A stretch of 33,594 nucleotides of DNA from a virus. The stretch's first letter is position 1, and every line of letters begins with the position of its first letter. The notes below the pieces were generated by a model. It had not been told where the DNA came from, did not search any database, and worked only from the letters and a program-made list of their open reading frames with translations. A program made the position numbers and the translations under genes. Positions 3,722-24,574 of the stretch are shown piece after piece. The stretch is from the IMG/VR virus record IMGVR_UViG_3300047173_000025, positions 1 through 33,594 of that record; one strand, 5' to 3'.

Positions 3722-4668
3722 TATGACATGTCGTAGTTGATCGTCATCGAAGTCGGCAAGCCTTTGGTCCCTGATGCCGTAAACACCCCGCCCGCGGCGC
3801 CTAACGACAGCACGATGCTCGCGCTTCCCGCGGACACATCGGCAGTCCCGAGTTGAATGGTCCCCGAGTCAATCACCTGCACGAAGTAGTTGGCGAACAC
3901 GGTCGCGGGCTGAATGCCAGCCGGCAGTCCCGTGATGCTCATGGCGTTGGTCGTCGAGGTGCCTGTCACTGCGTTTTGATTGATGAGCGTCACCTTGTTG
4001 CCGCTGCGATACCACTTGAAGGTGATGGCGGGCGGTGAGGCAAAGCCGGTGAGCGTCCCCGTAAAGCTGCCGGAAGTCGGCACCTGCGCGGGCGAGGAAA
4101 ACAGCACCCAGTTGCCGTTGTTGTACACCACTCCGCAAATCTCGTTGGCGACAATCACGTTGGCAGAGAGCGGCGAACCCGTCTGAGTGACAATCGGCGC
4201 GGGCGTGGTATAACTCGACCCGTTGTTGAACGAGACGCTCAACGTGGACGCGCCCGTATTGGAATTGGCCGCGGTGAAAAAAACAATGATGCCGTTGGCG
4301 AGCGCGGTCACGTTGGCGGTGTAAGACACGATATAAGCGTTCACCACGCCGCTATCCACGCCACCGTAGAGGGTGAGCAGTTGGCTGTTGAACACCTGAT
4401 CGGTCGACTTGATCTGATTGCCATTGGAATCCGCCTCGACGATTTTGTAGCCGGTGTTGGGGAGCAAGTACAGGTTCATCTCGCCGCGCGCATTGAGCGT
4501 CGCGGGATTGCTGTTTGGCGTGGTGGCCGTCCAGTCGGTCCACGTCGCAATCGGCGTCGTCGTGCCCGCCTGATAGGTCGTCACGGTGCCAAAGGCATTC
4601 GGGATGCCGGTGGACAGCCACGACTTGAAGGTCATGGTGGGCGCTAAATAAGCGTTCACCGTCGTCAT
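3721..4668 (-). CDS. Tail fibre or tailspike-like protein with shared N-terminal anchor
   Basis: A 315-residue protein. Residues about 15-86 (GIPNAFGTVTTYQAGTTTPI ... TGYKIVEADSNGNQ) match the anchor of the following tailspike, suggesting both attach to the same virion site or one serves as adaptor. The remainder is a beta-rich, low-charge fibre body. It contains a motif common in fibre shafts (GIIVFFTAANSNTGASTLSV) and ends in a compact beta domain from about residue 210. No catalytic motif is visible. The start at 4668 lacks a clear Shine-Dalgarno site, so translation may rely on coupling to a tiny upstream reading frame. Confidence 0.78.
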   Translation of the reverse strand: MTTVNAYLAPTMTFKSWLSTGIPNAFGTVTTYQAGTTTPIATWTDWTATTPNSNPATLNARGEMNLYLLPNTGYKIVEADSNGNQIKSTDQVFNSQLLTLYGGVDSGVVNAYIVSYTANVTALANGIIVFFTAANSNTGASTLSVSFNNGSSYTTPAPIVTQTGSPLSANVIVANEICGVVYNNGNWVLFSSPAQVPTSGSFTGTLTGFASPPAITFKWYRSGNKVTLINQNAVTGTSTTNAMSITGLPAGIQPATVFANYFVQVIDSGTIQLGTADVSAGSASIVLSLGAAGGVFTASGTKGLPTSMTINYDMS

Positions 4669-4802
4669 GTTATAATCGCGCGCATGTTCTGGTTCGCCGT
4701 CATCGCGTTCCCTTTAGGCGTCCTGTTTGGCATGGGATACCGGCGCCTCGTGACCGAGATCGTCGTACTGATCGGCATATCGGTGCTGCTCGTCAAACTC
4801 AT
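4665..4802 (-). CDS. Possible 45-residue bridging reading frame
   Basis: This frame starts with an ATG that overlaps the stop of the upstream ejection protein (ATGA) and ends with a TGA that overlaps the ATG of the downstream fibre gene (ATGA). It fills the gap exactly. The fibre gene has no obvious ribosome site, so translational coupling through this frame is plausible. Against it, the peptide is polar and low-complexity (many Thr, Ser, Asn, Met), its codons seldom begin with G, and the opposite strand carries a competing membrane-protein-like frame. It is a candidate only. Confidence 0.35.
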   Translation of the reverse strand: MSLTSSTDMPISTTISVTRRRYPMPNRTPKGNAMTANQNMRAIIT

Positions 4803-4809
4803 GGCTTAG
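4684..4809 (+). CDS. Possible 41-residue membrane protein on the opposite strand
   Basis: This would be the only plus-strand gene. It encodes two hydrophobic stretches (MFWFAVIAFPLGVLFGMGY and EIVVLIGISVLLVKLMA) around a short basic turn YRRLV, so a two-pass small membrane protein. About a third of its codons start with G, as in real genes. A TATAAT hexamer lies at 4671-4676, but no good -35 box and no Shine-Dalgarno precede the ATG at 4684. It lies in the gap between two minus-strand genes and overlaps the end of one. It could be a small lysis or exclusion protein, or an antisense coincidence. Confidence 0.35.
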   Translation: MFWFAVIAFPLGVLFGMGYRRLVTEIVVLIGISVLLVKLMA

Positions 4810-6718
4810 TCCGCAAGTCCTCAAGGCCCGCGCCGGGCTTGAGCGCATCTTTGGCGAATTTGTCGCCAGCGAAAATCTTTTTGCCTAGCCCGTAGGCGCC
4901 AAACGTCTTGGTGTTGAGCGCATGTTCCGCCGCGCCCTTGGCCGCATTGATGATGACGCCCGACTTGGGATAGTTGACGTAATTGCCAGCCGGGGCGACC
5001 TTCGCGCGCGTGATGGTGCGCCCTAACGATTCCAGCGCATCGCGCGTCTCGGGCGTCACCAGCGAGTCAATCTTGGGCTCAAGGTTGCGGAGTGCCCCGT
5101 TGTAGCCGTTCGGGAGCACTTGGCCGTTGGCATTCACGGCCGCTTTCCTGATGGCGTTCAAAGCGTGTGAGGCAATCGCGCCTTTGGATTCGTCGCCGAG
5201 CTTTTGCAGCATCACGTCGAGATTGGCCTTCGGAGCGTTCAGTGCGTACTTATCCAAGAATTTATCCGCGAGCGGCGACGGTTCGCCTTGCTTCACGTCA
5301 TCCTCGACCGCCGCGCGATAAGCGGGATCGCGCTCAAGCGCCTGGAAACGGGAGCGGGCCGCGGCGCGGGCGGAGTCGGCCAGTTCCTTGAGCGGTTCGG
5401 CCGCGGCGGAGAGCGGGAGCTGTTCAAGCTGGTCCCTGACGATGCCAGCCGCTGCCGCCTCGCTGCCGCCTTGACGCTGCGCTTCGGCCAGGCGGCTGCG
5501 GGCGGCCTCGAAGCGCTCGAAGTCCAAGGGCTCGCCCGCGCGCAAGGAGGACAACAGCTGTTGGGCGGGCGGCGGCAGACTCGCGGTCAACAAGTTTTTA
5601 TGAAGCAACTTGTCGACGTTATCCACCAGCGCGCCGGTATCCATCGGCACAGTGCCGCCGTTGGCATCAATGAGCGCCTTGTACTTCGCCGCAATATCGG
5701 CCTTGATCGGCTCATCGTAGGCTTTCAGCGCATCGACGACCTGCTGGCCGTTCTGGATGGCATCGTTGCCGACCGTCGTCGGGGACGCCTCGCGGCGGAT
5801 ATTGTCGATGGCGTCGATCATGTCGGTGTTTTGCTTCTCGAAATGCTTGACCAGGTTCTTGTCGGTGGAGTTTTGCTCCTCGGAGAACTGGATGGGATCG
5901 CGCGTCGCCTGCCCGCGCGTGAGCTGTACGCCGTGGCTGTCGGCCTCGACATGGGCAACGAGCGCATCGCGGTTCACCGCGCCGCCGGTTTTCTGCGCCG
6001 CTTGCACGATGGCGTCCTTGAGTGCGGGCGTGGTCGAGGTGAGATTGGCCGCAGCGCCCGCCGCCCCCATCGACTGCCCGGCCCCCGCCGCATCCGCAAT
6101 CCCCTGCGCGTCTGCGGGATTGATCGGCGCTTTCGGAGTGAGCGATCGGGCCCCTATGAACCCCGGCGCCTGGCGCACGGCTTCCTCCACGCCCGAGCGC
6201 AGCGGGTCCGTCACCGAGGCCGGCACGCCCATGGCCGACAGCCCCGATTCGTACATCCGCCCGGTCGCCCGCGCGGCCGCGCCGACGGTCTTGTCTGCGG
6301 CAGCCCCTAGAAGCCCCATCGTCGCCTTACCATAGTCCGTGCGCGGCGCATAGGTGAGGGCATCCTCGACTTCGCGCTTAAAGCCCGCAGGATCGCCGTC
6401 TTTGTTGCCCGTCGCGACGTCATATCCTGTCGCGGCGAGCCCGGCTACGTCGCTAATCGGCTTGGCAAGCGCCCCCGTGAGGGTCGATAGGATGGGCTCG
6501 ACCGCCCCGCCGTATAGGTTCTTGGCCCGCCCGGCGAGGGAGGAATCCTCCGCCTCCTTGGCCTTTTTGCGCTCCCGTTCGGTGCCCATTTGGCGTAAAG
6601 CGGCGTCCACGTCCGGGTCGCCCGTCGCTATAGGCCCGGAAACCGCCTCAGGTGGCGCAGGAGCGCCCGAAAACGCCGCATCGACGTCTGGGTCACCGCT
6701 ACTGGGCAAAGCCGCCAT
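4799..6718 (-). CDS. Large ejection (internal virion) protein, in the P22 gp16 position
   Basis: A 639-residue, highly helical, Ala/Asp/Lys-rich protein. The N-terminus repeats SGDPDVDAAFSG and TGDPDVDAALRQMG, two copies of a short acidic motif seen at the start of phage internal proteins. Residues about 66-130 contain Gly/Ala/Leu-rich segments that could insert in membranes, and much of the rest looks like long helices. It overlaps the upstream ejection-type gene by 20 bases and is the last and largest of three consecutive such genes, as P22 gp16 is. Such proteins leave the head on infection and help form a DNA channel across the envelope. Sequence similarity to gp16 itself is not visible. 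Confidence 0.6.
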   Translation of the reverse strand: MAALPSSGDPDVDAAFSGAPAPPEAVSGPIATGDPDVDAALRQMGTERERKKAKEAEDSSLAGRAKNLYGGAVEPILSTLTGALAKPISDVAGLAATGYDVATGNKDGDPAGFKREVEDALTYAPRTDYGKATMGLLGAAADKTVGAAARATGRMYESGLSAMGVPASVTDPLRSGVEEAVRQAPGFIGARSLTPKAPINPADAQGIADAAGAGQSMGAAGAAANLTSTTPALKDAIVQAAQKTGGAVNRDALVAHVEADSHGVQLTRGQATRDPIQFSEEQNSTDKNLVKHFEKQNTDMIDAIDNIRREASPTTVGNDAIQNGQQVVDALKAYDEPIKADIAAKYKALIDANGGTVPMDTGALVDNVDKLLHKNLLTASLPPPAQQLLSSLRAGEPLDFERFEAARSRLAEAQRQGGSEAAAAGIVRDQLEQLPLSAAAEPLKELADSARAAARSRFQALERDPAYRAAVEDDVKQGEPSPLADKFLDKYALNAPKANLDVMLQKLGDESKGAIASHALNAIRKAAVNANGQVLPNGYNGALRNLEPKIDSLVTPETRDALESLGRTITRAKVAPAGNYVNYPKSGVIINAAKGAAEHALNTKTFGAYGLGKKIFAGDKFAKDALKPGAGLEDLRTKP

Positions 6719-12073: not shown

Positions 12074-13287
12074 GGCGTCATCCCGCTCTGCACGGCGACG
12101 CCGTTGACCCAATACGTCATCGGCGGGCTCGTCACCGGGTAGGGCGTGTTCGTGCCCAAGGTCGCGCCATAGATCGGCACGAACAGGGGAGAGGAAATGG
12201 TGACCGCGGGCGCTTTGTTCGGCTGCGCCGGGATGTCGCTCGCGCCGCCGTTATTGAAGCACGCGCCGTCGAATGTGTATTGCACGGTATCGAATGTGAT
12301 CGCCACGCTGTCAAAGGTGGGATACGCCAGCGTAGTGAGCGTCGCAGCCGATGGCACAATGCCCTCGGTGTACAGCGTGACGCCAGATTCGGTGGTAAGG
12401 TCGACGCCGCCCTCGCTCTCGATCGGTTGCCCGTACAGGCTCACCACGCCAGCCTGCTGATTGACCGTGACGCCGATGTTGGTGACGTTGGCGGATGCGA
12501 CGGTGCCCACCGAATTCGTCAAAATGACGTAGAAGCCGTTCGGCACGGTGAGCGCCGTCACCGCATAGGCCGTGCCGGTGGGCTCGGCGGTCGGGAATAC
12601 GAACACGCCATTGGTGTTGACCGTGATCGTATCGATGCCGTCGGTGAGCTGCATACTGAGGCCGGCCGGCAGCCCGGTCATGGTGCCGCCAATCGCGTAT
12701 GTTTGCAGCGTGAACGCGGCGCCGACGTTCGTCACATTGCCGGTGACGGTGCCTGAGCCGTTGCTGATGATTGAGGTCGTATAGGCTGGTTCCGTGACGA
12801 CGCTGACCGCGTAGACCGTGCCGCGCGGCAGTCCCGTGGGAAAAGTGAACGCGCCCGCGCCGCTGAGTGTGATGGTATCGAAACCGTCGGTGAGCTGCGC
12901 GCCCGTGGCGTTGCCAGTGGCCGTTCCTGAAATCGAATACAGAGGCCCGGTCGTCACGGCGACGCCGACATTGGTCACATTGGCATAGCCGACCGTGCCC
13001 GCGGCGTTCGCAATGACCGTCGTATCGCCGCCCGGCTCGCTCACCACGGAGACCGTATAAGCGGTTCCCGGCGGCTGCGCCGTGGGGAAGGTGAAGCCGC
13101 CGTTCATGGTGATCGAGACGTTTTCGATGCCATCCGTCAGCACCAGGGTGCCGCTGGAGAGCCCCGATACCGTGCCGCCAATGGTGTAGGTCGGCGGCGT
13201 ATAGGATGCCGTCTTGACGATCGCATCCGCAAAGCGGCCGATCTGCGAAGGGCCGCCGGCGCCGACGCCTTTGAAGGAGCGGTTCAC
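12070..13287 (-). CDS. Virion protein with three tandem Ig-like repeats
   Basis: A 405-residue protein with three beta-sandwich repeats at residues about 34-112, 117-193 and 197-275. Each follows the same pattern: Y-x-I-G/S-G-T at the start, L-T-D-G-x-x-x-I/V in the middle, F-P-T then G-T-x-Y-x-V, then G-T-V and N-V-T-N-V/I-G at the end. Repeats of this type occur in secreted bacterial surface proteins. The C-terminal 130 residues are unique and contain FDSVAITFDTVQYTFDG. No signal peptide is seen. It is overlapped by the GH5 stop (ATGA) and by the gp10-like start (GTGA). A fibre or glycan-binding surface role is likely but unproven. Confidence 0.65.
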   Translation of the reverse strand: MNRSFKGVGAGGPSQIGRFADAIVKTASYTPPTYTIGGTVSGLSSGTLVLTDGIENVSITMNGGFTFPTAQPPGTAYTVSVVSEPGGDTTVIANAAGTVGYANVTNVGVAVTTGPLYSISGTATGNATGAQLTDGFDTITLSGAGAFTFPTGLPRGTVYAVSVVTEPAYTTSIISNGSGTVTGNVTNVGAAFTLQTYAIGGTMTGLPAGLSMQLTDGIDTITVNTNGVFVFPTAEPTGTAYAVTALTVPNGFYVILTNSVGTVASANVTNIGVTVNQQAGVVSLYGQPIESEGGVDLTTESGVTLYTEGIVPSAATLTTLAYPTFDSVAITFDTVQYTFDGACFNNGGASDIPAQPNKAPAVTISSPLFVPIYGATLGTNTPYPVTSPPMTYWVNGVAVQSGMTP

Positions 13288-14651
13288 TTGGCGCTCATCC
13301 AGCTATATACGGCCTGGGCGTAATAGGCATCGGACGTGCCGTTGCCCAATTTCGCGTTCTGCGGCGAGCCGTTTCCCGACGTCGTTTGACCCAAGAGCAC
13401 CGGCTGCCCTGCCGAATTGAAGCTCCACGCCAATCCGCCGCGATTGTTGGTATCGAGCCAGTTGGTCACGGCATTGGTCCAGGTGGCATTGCCGGTGCTG
13501 TAATCGCCCCACTCGAGCAACATCCCCGGGAGCGGCAGTTGCAGAAATTGCGTCCACGCATCGCCGCCGGACGGCCCCGAGGGAGTTGCGGAATTGTTGG
13601 CATAGGGATGCCACGACACGGCGAGCTGCGCGGGATAGCCTTGCTGCACGAGAGGGTCGGTCGGGATGAAAAGCGGATTGTTGGTCAAAAACGACCAGCC
13701 GCCGAAATTGCCATAGGATGGATTGGTGTAATTCGGTCCCGAAATGAAGCACACGTTCCTGGCGCCGGTAGCGCGCACGGCATTCAATACCTGCTGGTGC
13801 CCGGCGATCGTCCAGTAAAACGTCCCGCCCGAATTATAGTTCGCCGGATAGGGGCCGCCGCCGGATAGCGTGATATTGGCGAAACCGTTCGGGCGTGCAT
13901 TCGCATAGCCGTTGGTTCCCATGATCGAGCCCCATACCGCGTTGTTGCCCGAAATGCCGCCGCCATTGACGCCGGGATTGCCGATGGTGGGCTCGTTGAA
14001 GAAATCAAACGCGATGCCGCCCAACGATAGCGACGTGGCCGTGCCGTTCGGGCACCCATAGCGGGTGGCTAGCACCGTCCACGCGGTGATATCCGTGTCG
14101 GTGTTGAGCATCGCGATCTGCCCGCCGCCGCCATTTCCCGGCAGCATATACTTGCCGCCCACGTTCGGGCACGAATTACGAATGCCGACGATGACTCGCG
14201 CGCCGATTCCTTGACAGTAGGAAATGGCCTGGTCCAACTGTGCGAGGTAGGCGGAGGCCGTCATCCCCGCGATGTATTCGTTTGATAGGCCGGTATCGTA
14301 CGTATTAACGCCCAAAATCGAGGACGAGCAGAGCATAATCCTGACGACTTTCGGGCCCCACTCCGCCATGATCGAAGGCAGGAAATAGCCCCCGCTCCAC
14401 GAGTAGAAACTGTTTTGGCTTGCACCCGTGCCGGGAGAGCCAGCGGTGCCTTGCACGGTGTCCTCGTAGCCGTCGATGTTCACGCCATAGGGCTGCAAGA
14501 CGTTGCTGTTCTCATCGTAGAACTGCGTGCCCGACACGAACATTTGCACGCCGTTGACGCCGCCACCGAAGGGCGGCCCACCGCCGCCGCTGGGAGAGTA
14601 CTTCCCGAAGCTGAACGCGCTCGGGGTCTGCGGCACCTGCGCGATAGGCAT
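13284..14651 (-). CDS. GH5-type (cellulase-superfamily) glycoside hydrolase
   Basis: A 455-residue protein. After a Gly/Pro-rich linker (about residues 1-33), a TIM-barrel glycosidase follows: FYDENSNVLQPYGVNIDGYE (residues 44-63), Arg104 in VVRIM, the acid/base motif FDFFNEP (Asn219-Glu220), SWHPYANN (His348), and LLEWGDYS with the candidate nucleophile Glu380, then GGLAWSFN near the end. These are the conserved positions of clan GH-A family 5 enzymes, and all appear intact. No signal peptide is seen, so the enzyme is probably a virion part that cuts a beta-linked surface or biofilm polysaccharide. Substrate cannot be read from sequence. ATG at 14651 overlaps the upstream stop. Confidence 0.82.
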   Translation of the reverse strand: MPIAQVPQTPSAFSFGKYSPSGGGGPPFGGGVNGVQMFVSGTQFYDENSNVLQPYGVNIDGYEDTVQGTAGSPGTGASQNSFYSWSGGYFLPSIMAEWGPKVVRIMLCSSSILGVNTYDTGLSNEYIAGMTASAYLAQLDQAISYCQGIGARVIVGIRNSCPNVGGKYMLPGNGGGGQIAMLNTDTDITAWTVLATRYGCPNGTATSLSLGGIAFDFFNEPTIGNPGVNGGGISGNNAVWGSIMGTNGYANARPNGFANITLSGGGPYPANYNSGGTFYWTIAGHQQVLNAVRATGARNVCFISGPNYTNPSYGNFGGWSFLTNNPLFIPTDPLVQQGYPAQLAVSWHPYANNSATPSGPSGGDAWTQFLQLPLPGMLLEWGDYSTGNATWTNAVTNWLDTNNRGGLAWSFNSAGQPVLLGQTTSGNGSPQNAKLGNGTSDAYYAQAVYSWMSAK

Positions 14652-15204: not shown

Positions 15205-15471
15205 TTATGCTCCGGTGACGAGATTGGTCCAGCCGCTGCTGGTGCCGTTGGTGTTGATGTAGGCGCGCGTCGTCGTCGATGAGCCGTCGCTGCGCAAATA
15301 GAGCGAGCCTTGCGGGGCGGCGATTGCCGGGGCGCCAATGCCGTAGTAGATATTGAGCGCACCAGTGAGCAGCGCAAAGTTCGCGTTGATGATCTCACCG
15401 GCCGCCTGCAAGGGCGTGCCCGTGCCATCGTTGGGATAGGTGCCGGTGCCAATGACGCCGAAAGTGTTCAT
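15205..15471 (-). CDS. Small phage structural protein
   Basis: An 88-residue protein starting with ATG at 15471, overlapping the gp4-like stop (ATGA). The N-terminal half (YPNDGTGTPLQAAGEIINAN) and the C-terminal half (PQGSLYLRSDGSSTTTRAYI, ending in a GW.N motif) are both familiar from short proteins in phage tail regions. The second half resembles a small beta knob found at the tips of fibres. Probably a virion protein attached to the neck or tail. Confidence 0.65.
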   Translation of the reverse strand: MNTFGVIGTGTYPNDGTGTPLQAAGEIINANFALLTGALNIYYGIGAPAIAAPQGSLYLRSDGSSTTTRAYINTNGTSSGWTNLVTGA

Positions 15472-16460
15472 AAGTTACTGCCGAAGCCGCCGTGCATGAT
15501 GAAACTCGCATCCTTTCCAGACCCAGACATCAGGGCCGAATCGTAGCGTAATTTCTTTACCGGAACCTCATTTAGGCTCTTGATGAACGTGCGCGCCTCC
15601 CACGCCTGGCGCAGCAGCTCTTGATTCGGATTCTTGCCGTACTCCGGCGCGAGTTCGATGGCGAGCAGTTTTTTGAGCGCCCGCGCGTACCCTTGCGGCA
15701 GAGAGATGGTCTGCGTCGTCGTCAAAAACTCGCTCAAAATCACATCGGTGAAAAAGTACACCTGTCCCGCCGTCTGCGGATTGGGATACACCCACAGCGT
15801 GGCGTAGGGGTACGTCGGTTGCAGCGAGACCAGATACGGCCACGGGCCGGGCACGCCCTTATAGCCGATCTCGTTGTAGTCCTCGAAGGCCACAATATCG
15901 AACCAGTAATCGAGGCCGGTGTTGCCGGAGGCGGTGATGCGGGTATAACCGGGGCGAATCCTTAAAGGGCGCGCAATGGCGAAGTTGCCGGGGGCGGTGT
16001 AGGTGATCGAATCGCCCGTATAACTGCCCAACGCCGGGGCGCTCATCGTCACCGTCGTGCCACTTTGCGACACAATGGTCGCGCCGGCCGGGATCAAGCC
16101 CTGCACGTCGGTGAGTGTGCCGCCGACGGTCTGTCCGATGCCGTTGATGCCGGTCGTCAGGGTGAGCGTCGTAGTCACGTTGGTGATCGACGTGCTGCCC
16201 GCGGTCAGGTTGGCGACGAACGTCCCTTGACTCGGGTTGCCGATGGTGTACTGATACTGCCCCGGCGTCCATTGCAGGATATTCTGGTTCGATGTGAACA
16301 CGAACAGTTTGTCGGTCGAGAGCGAGTCGAGCAGATCGTTGAGCGTCTGCAGCGCGTCCGCCGCGTCATTGGCGTTCACCGGCTCCCCTGCTTCGGTGAC
16401 GTTGATGTTCCGCAGCGCGCCCGTGATGATGTCCAACGCGGTCGAGGTGACTGCGCCCAT
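15468..16460 (-). CDS. P22 gp4-like tail accessory (head completion) factor
   Basis: A 330-residue protein; ATG at 16460 overlaps the upstream stop in TAATG. Residues 1-70 (TSTALDIITGALRNINVTEA, NDAADALQTLNDLLDSL) form the helical start shared by gp4-type proteins that plug onto the portal. The C-terminal part LPQGYARALKKLLAIELAPE then RTFIKSLNEVPVKKLRYD closes the fold. P22 gp4 is about 166 residues. Residues about 75-157 here are a Thr/Ser/Gly-rich beta insert (GQTVGGTLTDVQGLIPAGAT ... SGTTVTMSAPAL), followed by the family core at IARPLRIRPGYTRI. It should attach to the portal and receive the gp10-like protein. An apparent longer N-terminus reading from 16850 is not coding. Confidence 0.8.
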   Translation of the reverse strand: MGAVTSTALDIITGALRNINVTEAGEPVNANDAADALQTLNDLLDSLSTDKLFVFTSNQNILQWTPGQYQYTIGNPSQGTFVANLTAGSTSITNVTTTLTLTTGINGIGQTVGGTLTDVQGLIPAGATIVSQSGTTVTMSAPALGSYTGDSITYTAPGNFAIARPLRIRPGYTRITASGNTGLDYWFDIVAFEDYNEIGYKGVPGPWPYLVSLQPTYPYATLWVYPNPQTAGQVYFFTDVILSEFLTTTQTISLPQGYARALKKLLAIELAPEYGKNPNQELLRQAWEARTFIKSLNEVPVKKLRYDSALMSGSGKDASFIMHGGFGSNL

Positions 16461-17935
16461 TATTGCTGTACTCCGGTGACGTAGGCTTTGCGCACCACTT
16501 GGCCGCACTTCGCGGACGCCTGTCCGTTGCCGGTGGGATTGGTCCCCGGCGTGGCGTACCGCGCTATCATGCCGTAATACGTCCAGATTGCGCTGCCGAC
16601 GGACGCATAAGCGGTGTTGAATTGGGACTGCGAGGTGCACAGCGTCCCCGCGCAGAGCGGCATGATGAACGGATAGAACCCGGCGGCGCCTGGGCTCGAT
16701 ACGCTCCAGTCGTTCGTATTGAGTACGTTGTCCGTCTCCCACCAGTGTCCGAGCGAGTAGCGCCAATAACTCGTGATGGGCGAGTAGTAGGTGGTATTGC
16801 AAGAGCCGCTGAGCGGCGTGCCGGTCACGAACGGCGAGAGCCACGCGCATTGATAGTACGCGGCGTTATTGCCACCGGCCAAAATCGACTTAAGCGCGTT
16901 GCTGCCGAGTACGGTGCGCAGGAACAGGGCGTAATGTGCCGGGGTCTGATAGATGCCGCCCGCGATCATCGGCTGCGTGAACGTGCCATAGGCGGTATAC
17001 GGAGCGGGATAGGCCGTCGGGTTGATCGTGGCAAATTCCTGCGCATACGCCGCATACAGCGCGGAGCCCGCGAGCGTGGCGACGCCCGCCGGGTTTTGAT
17101 TGATCGCGTGGACTTGCTCGTGAGCACCGTCGTAGTCGAAATAGCCCACGGTCGCTGGCACCTGGTACGTGTTCGGCTGACTCGGCACATTCACGCCGCA
17201 CTGCGCGCCGCAGAAGGTCGGCGTATTGGTGGTGCCGCCAGGGCTCGCGGCGCAGGAGAAATTGGGGACTGCGGTCGCGCTCACGCTCCCCGACGCGGTG
17301 GCCGTGATGGCCGCAAAGCCCGACCCCGCGGGCGTCGCGGATAGCTCAAACTGCGCGCCGGTCAGGTTCGTGCTCATGACGTAATACGTCGTGCCGGCCA
17401 CGAACGGCGTGGGCACGGTGCCCCCGAGGGTCACGGCTTCGTTGGAATAGTAGGTATTGGTCGCGGCCCACAGTGCCGAGCCGTTGCTAATCGTCGCCGT
17501 GATTGCGGACAGGCCGCTCGGGCCGATGCACTGCGTCCCGACGGTGACGCTGCCCATGTTCGTGTACCCGTCGCTAAAGGTGAGCGCAGACACATCGGTT
17601 GCGGTCAGGTTCGCAAGTCCCCCGCGCACCGCGGTGACCAGCTCGGCATACTGCCACTTCGATGCGCTGTCGACGTTCATGCCGGTGGTCGCGTTCCACG
17701 TCGTGCCGCTCGAGATCGACCAGAGCGCGCCCGAGGCGTTGCCGATCTCCGCATAGAACGGGGAGATGGCCGTGCACAGTGCGTTATTGAGCGCGGTTTT
17801 GCCCGCGGCGATGCCGCCGTTGTTGATGGGCTGGCTGTAACCGCCGCCGCCGCCACGCAGCAGCAGCCACTGCGCCTGCGCACTGCCGGCCAAGAGTGCC
17901 GCGGCGAGCGCCGCTGTGCGCAGAAAATCCCTCAT
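16460..17935 (-). CDS. Exported beta-lactamase-fold serine hydrolase with phage-type insert
   Basis: A 491-residue protein starting MRDFLRTAALAAALLAG with a Sec signal peptide cut after AQA (about residue 21). The remaining chain reads as a PF00144-type (S12, class C beta-lactamase) hydrolase: SASK at residues 90-93 followed by WQYAELVTAVRGGLANL, the second-motif region GYFDYDGAHEQVHAI with Tyr268, IAGGIYQTPAHYALFLRTVL at 324-343, then YWRYSLGHWWE and SSPGAAGFYPF at 413-423. Between motifs one and two, residues about 150-222 (NEAVTLGGTVPTPFVAGTTY, FELSATPAGSG) look like a beta insert common in phage virion proteins. Eleven or so cysteines suggest disulfides. Activity, substrate and whether it joins the virion are unknown. 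The start at 17935 overlaps the upstream stop (ATGA). Confidence 0.6.
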   Translation of the reverse strand: MRDFLRTAALAAALLAGSAQAQWLLLRGGGGGYSQPINNGGIAAGKTALNNALCTAISPFYAEIGNASGALWSISSGTTWNATTGMNVDSASKWQYAELVTAVRGGLANLTATDVSALTFSDGYTNMGSVTVGTQCIGPSGLSAITATISNGSALWAATNTYYSNEAVTLGGTVPTPFVAGTTYYVMSTNLTGAQFELSATPAGSGFAAITATASGSVSATAVPNFSCAASPGGTTNTPTFCGAQCGVNVPSQPNTYQVPATVGYFDYDGAHEQVHAINQNPAGVATLAGSALYAAYAQEFATINPTAYPAPYTAYGTFTQPMIAGGIYQTPAHYALFLRTVLGSNALKSILAGGNNAAYYQCAWLSPFVTGTPLSGSCNTTYYSPITSYWRYSLGHWWETDNVLNTNDWSVSSPGAAGFYPFIMPLCAGTLCTSQSQFNTAYASVGSAIWTYYGMIARYATPGTNPTGNGQASAKCGQVVRKAYVTGVQQ

Positions 17936-19212
17936 TGGATGCAGTGATAGGTGAATTTGTCGCCCGTCGCGCTCGCGTTGACGATCGTCAAGGCAGTCGT
18001 CGAGGTCGTGTAACTTGTCGGTGTCACACCGCTCGGACTCGACACCACGCAATCCGGCGCCGTGTTGTAGGCCGTCTGGAACGTCAGCGTGCAGCCGGTC
18101 GCGGTGGTGCCCTCGGTGATCGTGCCTTTCGTATCGGTCGCGGTCGCGTTGATCGACGGCGACGTGCCGCAAGACGATAGCGCCGATGAGGTCAGATTGG
18201 TCGTGACGATCGAGGCGATATTGTTCCCCACCAGCCCCAGCGTATGGGCTTGCGGCAGACTGATACCTGCGGTCAGGGACACTGCGTTTGAGGAAGGAAT
18301 CAGATTCGTGCCGGTAACGATGCCCGACGCATACAGATAGCCGGTGACTGAGAAGTCGCCCGATGCGTCGAGCGATGCAGCGCCCGCGCCGTTCGTGCAA
18401 AACGCGAGTCCTCCGCCCGTATAGGACGCCACCCGTCCGGTTCCTGTGAGGCCGCAGGCCGGTGAGTTGGGGATGAACCCTGGCGCGATCAGTCCATTCG
18501 ACCACACCGGGGCGCCGGCTGAGTTGTATTCAAAGCCGCCGCCGGGGATTGCCACGTAATTGCCGGGTGCCGCGGTGTTGTCCGCCCAAACGAGCATCCA
18601 GCCATACTGCGGGATGTACACGTCCGCGTTCGCGCCGTTGAGCGTGGCCCCTGCGCCCATGGTTGCCACATCGACCGACACTAGCCCTGCGCCCTCATTC
18701 CAGATGATGATCTGGAACCCGCCGGGATAGACATAGTTCGCGCCGATGGGCGGCAAGTACGCCGTTCCCGCCCCGCTCGCATTAAAAACGACTGACTGCG
18801 GGCTGGTCGCAGAGCCCGCGATATTGAGGTTGCCCGAGGCGACATACGTGGTCGCGGTGCCGGGCAAATAGGCGACGGGCAAAAAGTCCGAGTTCGATGA
18901 CTGAGAAAGCGATGCCAAGTCGACGGTGAACCCGGTGGGCAGCGACGCGCACGCGGAGGGCACTTGCGACACGCTGTTTGATGGATTGCACTGAATCGTG
19001 GATGGCGCGGCCGTAAACGCATTGGCGGCGACGAAGGCGGCGACCTGGCCGTAGGTCGCTTTTTGCGTGAGCACGCCGGGTATGACGTCTAACGTCACAT
19101 CGGTCGCTTGAATGCCCGTCGATGCCGGCAATTTGCTCACGACGATGCCTGTTTCTTGCGCGTGCGCGAGAGAGGCGAGCAGTGTGAGGATGAGAAAGGG
19201 TTTAAGGCGCAT
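17932..19212 (-). CDS. Exported Cys-rich fibre-like protein with tail-fibre C-terminal domain
   Basis: A 426-residue protein with a Sec signal peptide (MRLKPFLILTLLASLAHA, cleavage before QETG). The middle is beta-rich with phage-fibre features (GFQIIIWNEGAGLVSVDV, GWMLVWADN). The C-terminal 85 residues carry SSCGTSPSINAT, TEGTTATGCTLTFQTAYN, DCVVSS and a final FTYHC. This Cys pattern is one I recall at the ends of phage tail fibres and it also ends the 311-residue protein upstream in the operon. About eight cysteines suggest folding outside the cytoplasm. An exported or surface-displayed fibre is likely; virion incorporation is uncertain because of the signal peptide. Confidence 0.65.
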   Translation of the reverse strand: MRLKPFLILTLLASLAHAQETGIVVSKLPASTGIQATDVTLDVIPGVLTQKATYGQVAAFVAANAFTAAPSTIQCNPSNSVSQVPSACASLPTGFTVDLASLSQSSNSDFLPVAYLPGTATTYVASGNLNIAGSATSPQSVVFNASGAGTAYLPPIGANYVYPGGFQIIIWNEGAGLVSVDVATMGAGATLNGANADVYIPQYGWMLVWADNTAAPGNYVAIPGGGFEYNSAGAPVWSNGLIAPGFIPNSPACGLTGTGRVASYTGGGLAFCTNGAGAASLDASGDFSVTGYLYASGIVTGTNLIPSSNAVSLTAGISLPQAHTLGLVGNNIASIVTTNLTSSALSSCGTSPSINATATDTKGTITEGTTATGCTLTFQTAYNTAPDCVVSSPSGVTPTSYTTSTTALTIVNASATGDKFTYHCIQ

Positions 19213-19221
19213 ACATCACCA

Positions 19222-20370
19222 TCACTGATAACACTGCAAACCGACCGTGAAGGTCTCTGCGATGCGGGAGAATGATTCCACGCGCGAGCCATTGCCGCTG
19301 CCATCGAGCGTCAACACCGTGAAGGTGACCGAACCGCTGACGGCCGGCGCGTAGACAAAGGTCTGAATGCCCGTAGCGCCGCCGTCGTCATAGACTTTCG
19401 TGCCGCCCGCTGCCGTGATCTGCGCTGCGGTCATTTCATTGAGCGTCGAGGGCGCGGGCCAGGTGCCCCCTAAGTAGATGACCTCTTTGGCCCGGCGCGT
19501 CGTCACAAAGGGGTAGAGCGTCACGAGCGCGGAGGGCCCGTAATTGGTGATCGCCATCCCAGGGGCTTGCAAATAGATCGCGCTCGTACCGGAGAGCGCA
19601 TTGGCCGCGGCATAGTTCACATTCCCGTAGCCGTACCCGGTCGGCGTCGTTTGAAACGATAGGTAGCCGTTGGCCCAGCCGTCGGCCGTCTGCCGTAGCG
19701 CGGCCTTGATGTCGGCCATTGTCCAGGACGCATGGTTTTTCTTAAGGACGCCATACACCGCCGCAAGCGCGGCCGATGTGCCCGAGGGGGTCGTCGTCTC
19801 AAACCCCTCATAACCCGACGTCATGGAGAATTCGATGTTCACGTCGGCAGAGCACTGCTGGCCGGGGTACAGCGACAAAATCGTGCTGGTCACGATGCCG
19901 GGATAGCTCTGCGGGCCGCCGCAAAACGGCCAAACCGAGATTTGGTTGTTGCTTGCCAGCGTCGAGTAGTACGTCTGGTCAATCCCCGAGATGGAATACC
20001 CGGTTGCGGACGTGTTCAGCACCGAATACGGGGCATGATTGCTCGACGTCGCGGTGGCTCCCGCAAACAAGCTGGCTCCCGCATTCGTGGAATCCGCGAC
20101 TAGGGTGCCAGCCGTCGCGAACACCGTGCTGTAACTGCTGGTCTGCGCGCTCCAACTATCGCATCCATTCGCATTGACAGGCTCACCGCCGCCTGAATTG
20201 ATCGAGTAGCCGGTCATGCAGGTCTGATCGACGTAGGGCGGGTTGACCGAGCCATTTAAGATCGTGACAGCCGAATTGAGCTGATTCACCGCGTGGTCCG
20301 AATTATTCAGCACGTTTTGCGCCTGGGCTGAGCTGATAGCGAGTGCCCCGATAATCAATAATTTTCGCAT
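19222..20370 (-). CDS. Exported protein with subtilase (S8) C-terminal signature
   Basis: A 382-residue protein with a Sec signal peptide (MRKLLIIGALAISSAQA, before QNVL). Residues 196-259 read SGTSAALAAVYGVLKK, then WTMADIKAALRQTADGW, then GYGYGNVNYAAANAL. This is the order at the end of subtilase domains: the catalytic GTS loop (Ser199 here), the helix, the D-I-K-x-A-L-x-x-T-A segment, and G-x-V-N-A. The usual Pro after GTSxA is replaced by Ala. I cannot find convincing Asp (DTG) or His (HGT) motifs upstream, so it may be an inactive derivative. Residues 265-382 look like one or two beta-sandwich domains ending LQCYQ. No family is known to me with this whole layout. Confidence 0.5.
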   Translation of the reverse strand: MRKLLIIGALAISSAQAQNVLNNSDHAVNQLNSAVTILNGSVNPPYVDQTCMTGYSINSGGGEPVNANGCDSWSAQTSSYSTVFATAGTLVADSTNAGASLFAGATATSSNHAPYSVLNTSATGYSISGIDQTYYSTLASNNQISVWPFCGGPQSYPGIVTSTILSLYPGQQCSADVNIEFSMTSGYEGFETTTPSGTSAALAAVYGVLKKNHASWTMADIKAALRQTADGWANGYLSFQTTPTGYGYGNVNYAAANALSGTSAIYLQAPGMAITNYGPSALVTLYPFVTTRRAKEVIYLGGTWPAPSTLNEMTAAQITAAGGTKVYDDGGATGIQTFVYAPAVSGSVTFTVLTLDGSGNGSRVESFSRIAETFTVGLQCYQ

Positions 20371-20376
20371 CGCGGA

Positions 20377-21312
20377 TCACAAGCACACGTAGGAGAAGGT
20401 TCCAGCGGCGGCGGTTTTTACATAAACGGCCGACGTGGTGGGCGCCGTGGAAATATACGGCAGTACGGTTGCGCTATAGCCTGCGACGACGCAGAACGGC
20501 GTACGCTTGCTGAATGTGGAACCGAACGCAATCTCGCAGGTATCTACCCCGGTGGCGACCACGGCGCCGCCGTTATCGGAGCCTCCCGTCGCGAGACTGC
20601 ATCCGGTCCCGGTCACGGTCGGCGCGGTGCCGTTGCCGGTGAGCCACGGATGGCCGTTCGCGTCGGATATGACGCACGGGCCTAAGTTGAACGCTACCGG
20701 CGTGCCGTAATCGCTGATAGTGCCGACCGTATCGTTAAACCAGGCGCAGTCGCCAGCGTTCGGGGTGCTGAATGTATTGTCAACCAACACGCCGTACGTG
20801 TTGCCGCCTTGAGATTCCGTCGTGCGCGCCAAAACACCCAGGCCGCCGGCCGCGCTAGACGAGTAAGACGCCTGCACGTATGGCTGATTTAACGCCCACG
20901 TTTGCGCCGTGGCATCAACCGTGATCGCGGAGTTATAATCACTAAGGGCCCATATTTGGCCGCCGCCGTTCGCGCCATTCTGACTGGCGACGACGACGAC
21001 GAATGGACAATCTTGACTGATCGTATAGCCGCTCGGTACTTGCGCCGGTCGGTTCCACGCGCCCGTCTGAATTTGCCACAACCCGTTTTGCGTCGTCGTC
21101 GTCTGCCCGGTCAGCAATATGATTTTTCCCGCCTGCAACCCGGACGGAACGCCGGAAAGTGTCGTTTGCGTCGTTGCCACGGCGGATGCGGCGAACGTGC
21201 CGCCGAGCAAGACCAGGCCGCCGTCTGTCGTGACGGCGTTGCCAGGATACGGCACCGCTTGCGCGAACAGCAGCGTCGGCATCAAGGCAAAGAGTGCGAG
21301 GAATTTTGCCAT
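20377..21312 (-). CDS. Exported fibre-like protein with paired C-terminal domain
   Basis: A 311-residue protein with a Sec signal peptide (MAKFLALFALMPTLLFAQA, cleavage before VPYPG). Residues about 55-125 (AGKIILLTGQTTTTQNGLWQ, IQTGAWNRPAQ) are a common phage tail-fibre motif. The C-terminal 80 residues (TGTGCSLATGG, TCEIAFGSTFSKRTPFCVV, ending FSYVCL) match the end of the 426-residue exported protein. Seven cysteines are present. Having a fibre motif behind a secretion signal is unusual, because virion fibres normally assemble in the cytoplasm. It may be an exported surface fibre or a virion part with a cleavable or unused signal. Confidence 0.65.
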   Translation of the reverse strand: MAKFLALFALMPTLLFAQAVPYPGNAVTTDGGLVLLGGTFAASAVATTQTTLSGVPSGLQAGKIILLTGQTTTTQNGLWQIQTGAWNRPAQVPSGYTISQDCPFVVVVASQNGANGGGQIWALSDYNSAITVDATAQTWALNQPYVQASYSSSAAGGLGVLARTTESQGGNTYGVLVDNTFSTPNAGDCAWFNDTVGTISDYGTPVAFNLGPCVISDANGHPWLTGNGTAPTVTGTGCSLATGGSDNGGAVVATGVDTCEIAFGSTFSKRTPFCVVAGYSATVLPYISTAPTTSAVYVKTAAAGTFSYVCL

Positions 21313-23218: not shown

Positions 23219-24574
23219 TTAGCCTGCGATCCGGGCGCCGAGCGTCCGGTAGAGGGATGCGGGACCGTAGAGCACATCCGCGCGCGTCGGCTCCGAGTCG
23301 TTGTTGATGGTGTACTGCGACACCACGCGAATGCTCATGCCGACGTCCTCATCGTCATAGGCGCGCGCCGCAAATTCCACACCGCGCGGCAGCGGCAAGT
23401 CTGCGAACGCCAAGGCGTAGGCGTACTTGTGGAAGATGAGCGACTGCGGGCTCACCGTGGACGCATAAGCCGTGCCGCCGTTGACCGTAATGGCCGCGCC
23501 CGAGGAGGGCACCGCGGTGACGTTCTGGAATTGGCCGCCGTAGATGCAGCAATCCCCGATGGTGAGCGTCAGCGTCCCGGTGCCGCTCGAGGTGTACGCA
23601 CCCGTGATCGGGTTGAACGTGCCCGCGGCGAGCGCGGCAGCGCCGAAGGTGAGGCCCGGCGAGGCCGCGCCGTTCGGAGGCGCCACGAACCCGCCCGGCG
23701 GCAGCACCACGAACTGGCGCAGCGTTTTTCCGTACTGATTGCGGTTCTGCGGGTTGACCGGATAGACGCCGCCAAACTGGATGACATCGCCAACTTGCAC
23801 GACGGCAGTCGAAGCAGTCCAGCCTTGCGTCGGGACCGTGCCGGACTGAGCCCAGCCCGAGGACAAAAAGGCGGTCCCAGCGACCGGCGTGGTCAGAATG
23901 GGCGTGCCGCCCTGCGCGCCGGTCGTCATCACGGGAATGTTCTGATCTTCCCACCAGTCGAGGCCGGCAAATTCCTTCGCGATCATGCCGGTTTCGATGT
24001 ACTCGCCGATCTTGGCCTGCGGGTTGAACAGGCCCTGCACGGTCGCCACCATGGACGACATTGAGGTGGGATCCAGCACCGCGTTTTTCTCGCCCTCGCG
24101 CGGACAGGATTCGTTCGCGAGATACGCGCGCGCATCGGTGAATAGTTTGAGCGAGTTCGGGCTGATGCCGAATGTGCCGAAAGTCGCCGCGGTGTTGAGG
24201 TAGGCGTACTGCGCCGTGTCGGAGTCGATGCGGTTCGCGACCGTGGCGATCTGCGGCTTGAGCACGCGCTTTTTGAACATGTCCATCGACAGGCCCAAGT
24301 CCTGCGTCGTGAACTGGATGTCGACGTGGAACTGATAGTTGAGCGCGACCGGGATATAGGTCTCGTTCGTGTCCTCGACGTTGAGCGGCGGCCCGTAGGT
24401 GCCCTTGTACCGAGGCGGACGGCGCACGTTGCAGGTGTTGCCGATCTTGGCTCCAGTCTGCGCAAATTCGGCGGAATACTGGCGCTCGACGCGATTGGCG
24501 ATGACCAGCTCGTTCTCGAGGACGACGAGAGCTTCATTCGTGATGTAGCTCATCGTCAGCAGATTGTTTGGCAC
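23219..24574 (-). CDS. Major coat protein, P22 gp5-like (HK97 fold)
   Basis: A 451-residue protein. It starts with GTG at 24574 behind an AGGAGG site, giving VPNNLLTMSYITNEAL, which fits the N-terminus of P22-type coat relatives; ATG at codon 8 is the alternative. Residues 16-120 (VLENELVIANRVERQYSAEF, GNTCNVRRPPRYKGTYGPPL, QFTTQDLGLSMD, LKPQIATVANRIDSD) are the conserved coat-family head. The middle has an Ig-like insertion region (about 220-320), and the end has EFAARAYDDEDVGMSIRVVS followed by the ADVLYG loop. It builds the icosahedral capsid with the scaffold encoded just upstream. The Shine-Dalgarno lies in a hairpin. Confidence 0.88.
   Translation of the reverse strand: MPNNLLTMSYITNEALVVLENELVIANRVERQYSAEFAQTGAKIGNTCNVRRPPRYKGTYGPPLNVEDTNETYIPVALNYQFHVDIQFTTQDLGLSMDMFKKRVLKPQIATVANRIDSDTAQYAYLNTAATFGTFGISPNSLKLFTDARAYLANESCPREGEKNAVLDPTSMSSMVATVQGLFNPQAKIGEYIETGMIAKEFAGLDWWEDQNIPVMTTGAQGGTPILTTPVAGTAFLSSGWAQSGTVPTQGWTASTAVVQVGDVIQFGGVYPVNPQNRNQYGKTLRQFVVLPPGGFVAPPNGAASPGLTFGAAALAAGTFNPITGAYTSSGTGTLTLTIGDCCIYGGQFQNVTAVPSSGAAITVNGGTAYASTVSPQSLIFHKYAYALAFADLPLPRGVEFAARAYDDEDVGMSIRVVSQYTINNDSEPTRADVLYGPASLYRTLGARIAG

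Follow-up and report, generated by a model that had tools for sequence, protein, structure and literature searches.

Why should a tailed phage encode, within its structural operon, a run of proteins that begin with export signals? The question is raised by IMG/VR record IMGVR_UViG_3300047173_000025, a virus record of 33.6 kilobases (kb) from a P22-like soil podovirus, the whole of which was analyzed and is called the window here. Four consecutive late open reading frames (ORFs) on its minus strand (16460-21312; 311, 382, 426, and 491 amino acids, hereafter genes 1 to 4) each start with a good Sec/signal peptidase I signal peptide. The accepted view is that tailed-phage fibres are assembled onto virions in the cytoplasm. 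Virion proteins that start out as Sec pre-proteins are familiar from the coat proteins of filamentous phages, which are extruded through the membrane; we know of no Sec pre-protein route established for the virion proteins of tailed phages. The answer favored here is that the run probably encodes Sec-exported fibre and hydrolase modules that stay in the periplasm until lysis sets them free. The genes and their predicted signal peptides are as follows.

20377..21312, minus strand: gene 1, pre-protein of 311 amino acids with a capsid-decoration-type domain
21256..21312, minus strand: predicted signal peptide of gene 1 (residues 1-19), MAKFLALFALMPTLLFAQA, ending in FAQA before VPY
19222..20370, minus strand: gene 2, pre-protein of 382 amino acids
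20320..20370, minus strand: predicted signal peptide of gene 2 (residues 1-17), MRKLLIIGALAISSAQA, ending in AQA before QNV
17932..19212, minus strand: gene 3, pre-protein of 426 amino acids, mature part without database match
19159..19212, minus strand: predicted signal peptide of gene 3 (residues 1-18), MRLKPFLILTLLASLAHA, ending in AHA before QET
16460..17935, minus strand: gene 4, pre-protein of 491 amino acids
17873..17935, minus strand: predicted signal peptide of gene 4 (residues 1-21), MRDFLRTAALAAALLAGSAQA, ending in AQA before QWL

The ORF of gene 4 is open back to 18505 (681 amino acids), and its start was placed at 17935 because of the ATGA overlap with the stop of the preceding gene.

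Signal peptides were scored by home-made rules that require an n-region with basic residues, a hydrophobic core free of charge, and a site resembling A-x-A, with small residues at -3/-1 near residues 15-30 as expected for Sec and signal peptidase I. All four proteins show these features, from which export and cleavage are predicted. The scorer matches 4/4 proteins of the run and 0/30 other called proteins of the window, late-operon proteins included; the earlier note, which had reported four consecutive signal peptides here and proposed prediction on all window proteins as a check, is thereby borne out. A spanin-like ORF of 158 amino acids (343-819), outside the late structural run, also scores, as expected from its N-terminal membrane anchor. 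The observed scores are attained by 42, 14, 2, and 25 per 5000 composition-preserving shuffles of the N-termini (0.04-0.8%), no window among 7144 from the interior of late proteins scores ≥5.0, and 2/737 antisense ORFs reach 5.0 when any start is permitted; the chance controls do not reproduce four signal peptides in a row. The four mature parts contain no second transmembrane segment (maximum Kyte-Doolittle mean over 19 residues, 1.20-1.36), and no lipobox was flagged in the four by the scorer. Cysteine constitutes 1.95% of the four mature parts versus 0.69% of the other late proteins (2.8-fold, Fisher p 2e-5); the description of the four as unusually cysteine-rich thus holds for the group, though two other window proteins are equally rich.

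The mature parts contain modules of virion type, and three segments could be delimited.

20893..21192, minus strand: decoration/fibre-type domain of gene 1 (residues 41-140), with matches to 9nx3_A, phrog_2824, and phrog_2647
19624..19866, minus strand: weak likeness of gene 2 to the C-terminal (serine) part of Peptidase_S8 (profile positions 208-288 of 288)
17315..17488, minus strand: fibre module of gene 4 (residues 150-207), matching a Peptidase_S74 (S74) fibre of locus L125

Residues 41-140 of gene 1 match PDB entry 9nx3_A, "Capsid decoration protein" (E 4.9e-6), and the head/virion families phrog_2824 (4e-11) and phrog_2647, "head decoration" (8.4e-6). The same domain is found in a signal-peptide-bearing protein of a related phage, L010 (33% identity). 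By sequence similarity, gene 1 is a candidate capsid decoration protein whose presence on the capsid is putative. The gene 4 module, of 58 residues, is 43% identical to a module of the signal-peptide-bearing S74 fibre of L125 (E 8e-7). Genes 1 and 4 are tied to other phages only via such common domains; tblastn and pattern scans detected no whole-protein relatives of the four in phage records or IMG/VR, and the similarity between the C-termini of genes 1 and 3 is not significant (E 0.34). The proposal that two of the four have hydrolase-like folds is weakly supported for one (gene 2) and unsupported for the other (gene 4). Gene 2 aligns with only the last 80 positions of the Peptidase_S8 profile, at 11.2 bits against a cut-off of 21.8, and has no Pfam match; the full Asp, His, and Ser blocks above the curated cut-off were not found in it. 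A beta-lactamase-like serine hydrolase, suggested for gene 4 by eye, was not borne out, as PF00144 gave no match at E ≤ 10 and the Pfam scan was negative. The Pfam scan also found no C-terminal S74 domain in the four genes, and neither Pfam nor NCBIfam gave a match of the Lom/Bor type (outer-membrane barrel).

The late operon lies on the minus strand in the order terminase, portal, scaffold, P22-type coat, small genes, the four-gene run, a gp4/adaptor-like gene, tail genes, ejection-protein-like genes, and fibres. The four-gene cassette, with coupled starts, is located between the capsid and adaptor genes, and its GC content at third codon positions (GC3) is that of the remaining phage genes. 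The slot is bordered by two genes.

23219..24574, minus strand: P22-type major head protein, which borders the cargo slot on its upstream side
15468..16460, minus strand: gp4/head-tail-adaptor-like gene, downstream border of the slot

Among 52 loci having both coat and gp4-like genes, the stretch between them ranges from approximately 0.4 to 9 kb, and many slots contain large cargo genes (≥300 amino acids), e.g., a GDSL-esterase-like protein in L020 whose match falls slightly below the curated cut-off. Signal peptides in this slot are found in the window and in the relative L008 only, and there every large cargo gene has one; the L008 slot encodes an S74 fibre and a protein with SGNH motifs (read by eye; Pfam gives no match). 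Other signal-peptide-bearing cases are L010, L022, and L075. In the related phage G001, a signal-peptide-bearing protein of 195 amino acids (L104, 3269-3856, plus strand; PAWG before QETL) is encoded on the strand opposite to the late operon. Several genes between coat and gp4 start with the motif MPxxNPGPA, namely cargo genes of L020, L027, and L039 and the first gene after the coat gene in most of L002-L081. The L020 esterase starts with MPSINPGPAS and there resembles the first post-coat gene in most of these phages, although the likeness spans 12-21 residues only. The motif is possibly a shared capsid- or virion-binding start, a lead rather than a result. Elsewhere in the window, a 455-amino-acid protein (13284-14651, minus strand) has a glycosyl hydrolase family 5 domain (E 1.3e-13) without a signal peptide and is probably an ordinary anchored tail enzyme of the same operon; positions 1305-1676 appear endolysin-like by eye.

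Signal-peptide-bearing fibres are also found in unrelated phages. A search with the S74 part of the L008 fibre identified L125, a BPP-1-like locus with a GP7-type coat and a Bbp16-like gene, in which a signal-peptide run lies between the coat/Bbp16-like genes and the tail genes. This run comprises a 111-amino-acid protein, a 434-amino-acid fibre-like protein, the S74 fibre, a short sialate-esterase-like (SASA) piece with a twin-arginine-like start, a 1028-amino-acid beta-helix-like protein with a carbohydrate-binding module match, and an 823-amino-acid protein. The S74 domain is present in signal-peptide-bearing proteins of L008, L075, and L125. Furthermore, L130 has three consecutive signal-peptide-bearing genes after a head gene, the S74 fibre of L131 lies between myovirus baseplate genes, and that of L132 adjoins siphovirus tail genes. 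In a wider search, the scorer found a signal peptide in 9 of 63 viral S74 ORFs with intact starts (54 without), and L133, with a longer signal missed by the scorer, is the tenth positive; this frequency is not a population estimate, because the sample was drawn with signal-peptide-bearing queries. When only the last 125 residues (the C-terminal Peptidase_S74 domain) are used for the tree, L008, L075, L125, L130, L131, L132, and L133 form one clade (99/97) in which 7/7 members bear signal peptides while adjoining differing kinds of virion genes. The signal-peptide label requires 3 changes on the tree versus 11.1 by shuffling. Runs are known from podoviruses with at least two types of capsid; single genes lie beside myovirus baseplate genes, beside siphovirus tail genes, and in likely Bacteroidota phages.

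Three further S74 observations are recorded. In L132 (1335-2900), the S74 fibre has, besides its signal peptide, a hydrophobic segment at the extreme C-terminus after S74, a MYRF-like layout that could let the fibre be exported, anchored, and then cut loose by the self-cleavage of S74. The L133 contig also contains an ORF that resembles NeuB (sialic acid synthase) by eye (4086-5108). Among 299 bacterial genomes of one phylum, five S74 matches were found, one of them signal-peptide-bearing (L215, 6344-9118, minus strand), which is chromosomal, lies among housekeeping genes, and falls outside the phage signal-peptide clade.

Two isolated phages link the signal peptide to a known fibre architecture. 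Gp35 of Xanthomonas phage PBR31 ("putative structural protein") and gp19 of Burkholderia phage BcepC6B ("tail fiber protein") are homologous and share a conserved signal peptide; they are encoded after or next to the tailspike gene, and each phage has a separate pectate-lyase-like spike. Between gp19 and gp35, the hydrophobic core is identical at 1/10 positions and the mature start at 27/31. Their last ~140 residues also end the tail fibres of Peat1 and KpV74, which start with the T7-type virion-anchor domain PF03906 and not with a signal peptide. One and the same fibre tip is thus joined to a PF03906 anchor in some phages and to an export signal in others. PBR31 also encodes gp40 (L085, 26930-27577, minus strand), an SGNH esterase whose signal peptide ends in a lipobox-like LLLGAC and which was grouped with lysis by its authors (PMC10975493).

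The predicted cleavage sites share one further feature. The residue after cleavage is glutamine in 17/24 listed pre-proteins, versus 7% for the scorer on random sequence; the set was hand-assembled and includes some near relatives, which makes the p value nominal. Glutamine at +1 is a rule for Bacteroidetes signal peptidase substrates (PMC5837995). A Bacteroidetes host for the window phage, considered on this basis, is not assignable given the high GC content. Separately, L150 (1609-2688), L202 (7137-8273), and their kin are signal-peptide S74 fibres with +1 glutamine, directly upstream of another signal-peptide-bearing gene, which in L150 is followed by a holin-like gene and an endolysin; they are probably Bacteroidota phages obeying this rule.

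The sequences establish that the signal peptides are present, that they cluster in runs and are conserved in phages both related and unrelated, that the proteins contain virion-type modules, and that a signal takes the place of an anchor; a mechanism can be proposed from these findings. The four genes would constitute a cargo cassette making Sec pre-proteins of fibre, decoration, and enzyme modules, which would be translated alongside the capsid genes and then exported. Cleavage would follow A-x-A, usually before glutamine, and the mature proteins would fold with disulfides in the periplasm and be stored there until lysis. Released together with the progeny, they would target surface glycans or receptors from outside the cell, as free adhesins/hydrolases (decoys) or in a virion-docked form. 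Lysis is the most likely onset of action outside, since large fibre trimers should not get through the outer membrane unaided. The balance tips slightly toward a free role because the signal peptide replaces the virion anchor, and virion docking is possible because gene 1 has a decoration-type domain. The export step is well supported by the scorer controls, +1 glutamine, cysteine enrichment, and conservation on the tree and in the isolated-phage pair. Hence, the export part of the earlier note's suggestion, an exported set acting at the periplasm or cell surface, stands, whereas the site of action follows only loosely. More tentatively, the window may represent a widespread tailed-phage class of receptor-binding, decoration, and glycan-processing proteins that traded the virion anchor for a Sec signal and would form a late-made, periplasm-folded, lysis-released extracellular kit, whose members could be decoys, depolymerases acting freely, or parts that join virions once the cell has lysed.

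Several observations weigh against these proposals. Signal-peptide-bearing cargo is found in just 2/52 related slots, genes 2 and 3 of the window have no clear homologues, and AlphaFold2 without an alignment gives predicted local distance difference test (pLDDT) values of 35 and 30 for genes 2 and 4. The signal-peptide calls come from a home-made scorer applied to sequence alone, and the sampling of S74 proteins relied on similarity to queries with signal peptides. A route across the outer membrane before lysis is unexplained, and host assignment failed, the coat homologues in genomes being three contigs of metagenome-assembled genomes with mixed labels.

Of the alternatives, the one that survives best, although unlikely, is that the matured exported proteins are true virion proteins that bind the capsid or tail when periplasmic contents and virions meet at lysis. 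The gene 1 domain, with its solved capsid decoration relative and PHROG head-decoration matches, and the adjacency of the cassettes to capsid genes in the window, L008, L125, and L130 argue for it; however, in BcepC6B/PBR31 compared with Peat1/KpV74 the signal peptide occupies the place of the virion anchor, and the decoration-type domain may be one common to fibres in general. Moron-like effectors at the surface or in the periplasm, of the lambda Lom/Bor type and acting before lysis in receptor masking, superinfection exclusion, or envelope remodeling, are rather improbable: Lom does have a signal peptide and sits among the lambda tail genes (PMC12309495), and PBR31 gp40 is a comparable case (PMC10975493), but the domains here are of fibre/spike type and not outer-membrane barrels or lipoproteins, the genes are packed within the structural operon, and no PADLOC model of known anti-phage or exclusion systems matched. 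Pre-lysis exclusion, which the earlier note had given as an example, is therefore less likely than action after lysis; release at lysis, followed by receptor/glycan binding or docking, is preferred because of the decoration/fibre domains and the glycan-/ester-acting enzymes in relatives. That the N-termini are not used for export, being instead remnants of secreted host proteins that were captured, or hydrophobic peptides for docking on virions, is very improbable: signal-peptide-bearing bacterial S74 proteins exist (L215) and fast-folding fibres could escape Sec, but the members of an S74 clade have retained the trait despite their divergence, gp19 and gp35 differ in the core and agree at the mature start, a pattern unlike that of a docking peptide, A-x-A and +1 glutamine persist, and GC3 matches that of the remaining phage genes.

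The tagged fibres in unrelated phages suggest that some phages export receptor-binding proteins before burst and do not solely build them into particles. If so, receptor-binding proteins and glycan-acting enzymes would reach first the periplasm and then, once the cell lyses, its surroundings. This would matter for plaque halos, superinfection, adsorption to debris, and access to biofilms, as well as for annotation pipelines that label such genes virion fibres. BcepC6B gp19 and PBR31 gp35 make the export idea testable in isolated phages, and the signal-peptide S74 clade provides a sequence handle for a wider survey.

Exported proteins among tail genes (Lom) and a signal-peptide SGNH esterase (PBR31) were known before, and no description of signal-peptide-bearing fibre cassettes or of the signal-peptide S74 clade was found in the open-licence papers searched. 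Lambda Lom, an exported protein encoded among tail genes (PMC12309495), and Bor resemble the window set in being exported proteins encoded among or after the tail genes of a tailed phage; by contrast, they are an outer-membrane barrel and a lipoprotein for lysogenic conversion and not fibre, decoration, or hydrolase modules. Compared with the decoration protein of PDB 9nx3, gene 1 has a similar domain and adds a signal peptide and a cysteine-containing C-terminal part outside the match. Among phage fibres and spikes with the Peptidase_S74 chaperone, several related signal-peptide-bearing proteins end in S74, whereas most of the viral S74 fibres sampled have no signal. BcepC6B gp19 and PBR31 gp35 are, like the window proteins, fibre-type proteins with a conserved signal peptide, and they differ in being encoded by one gene instead of four and in lying after the spike gene instead of in the coat/adaptor slot.

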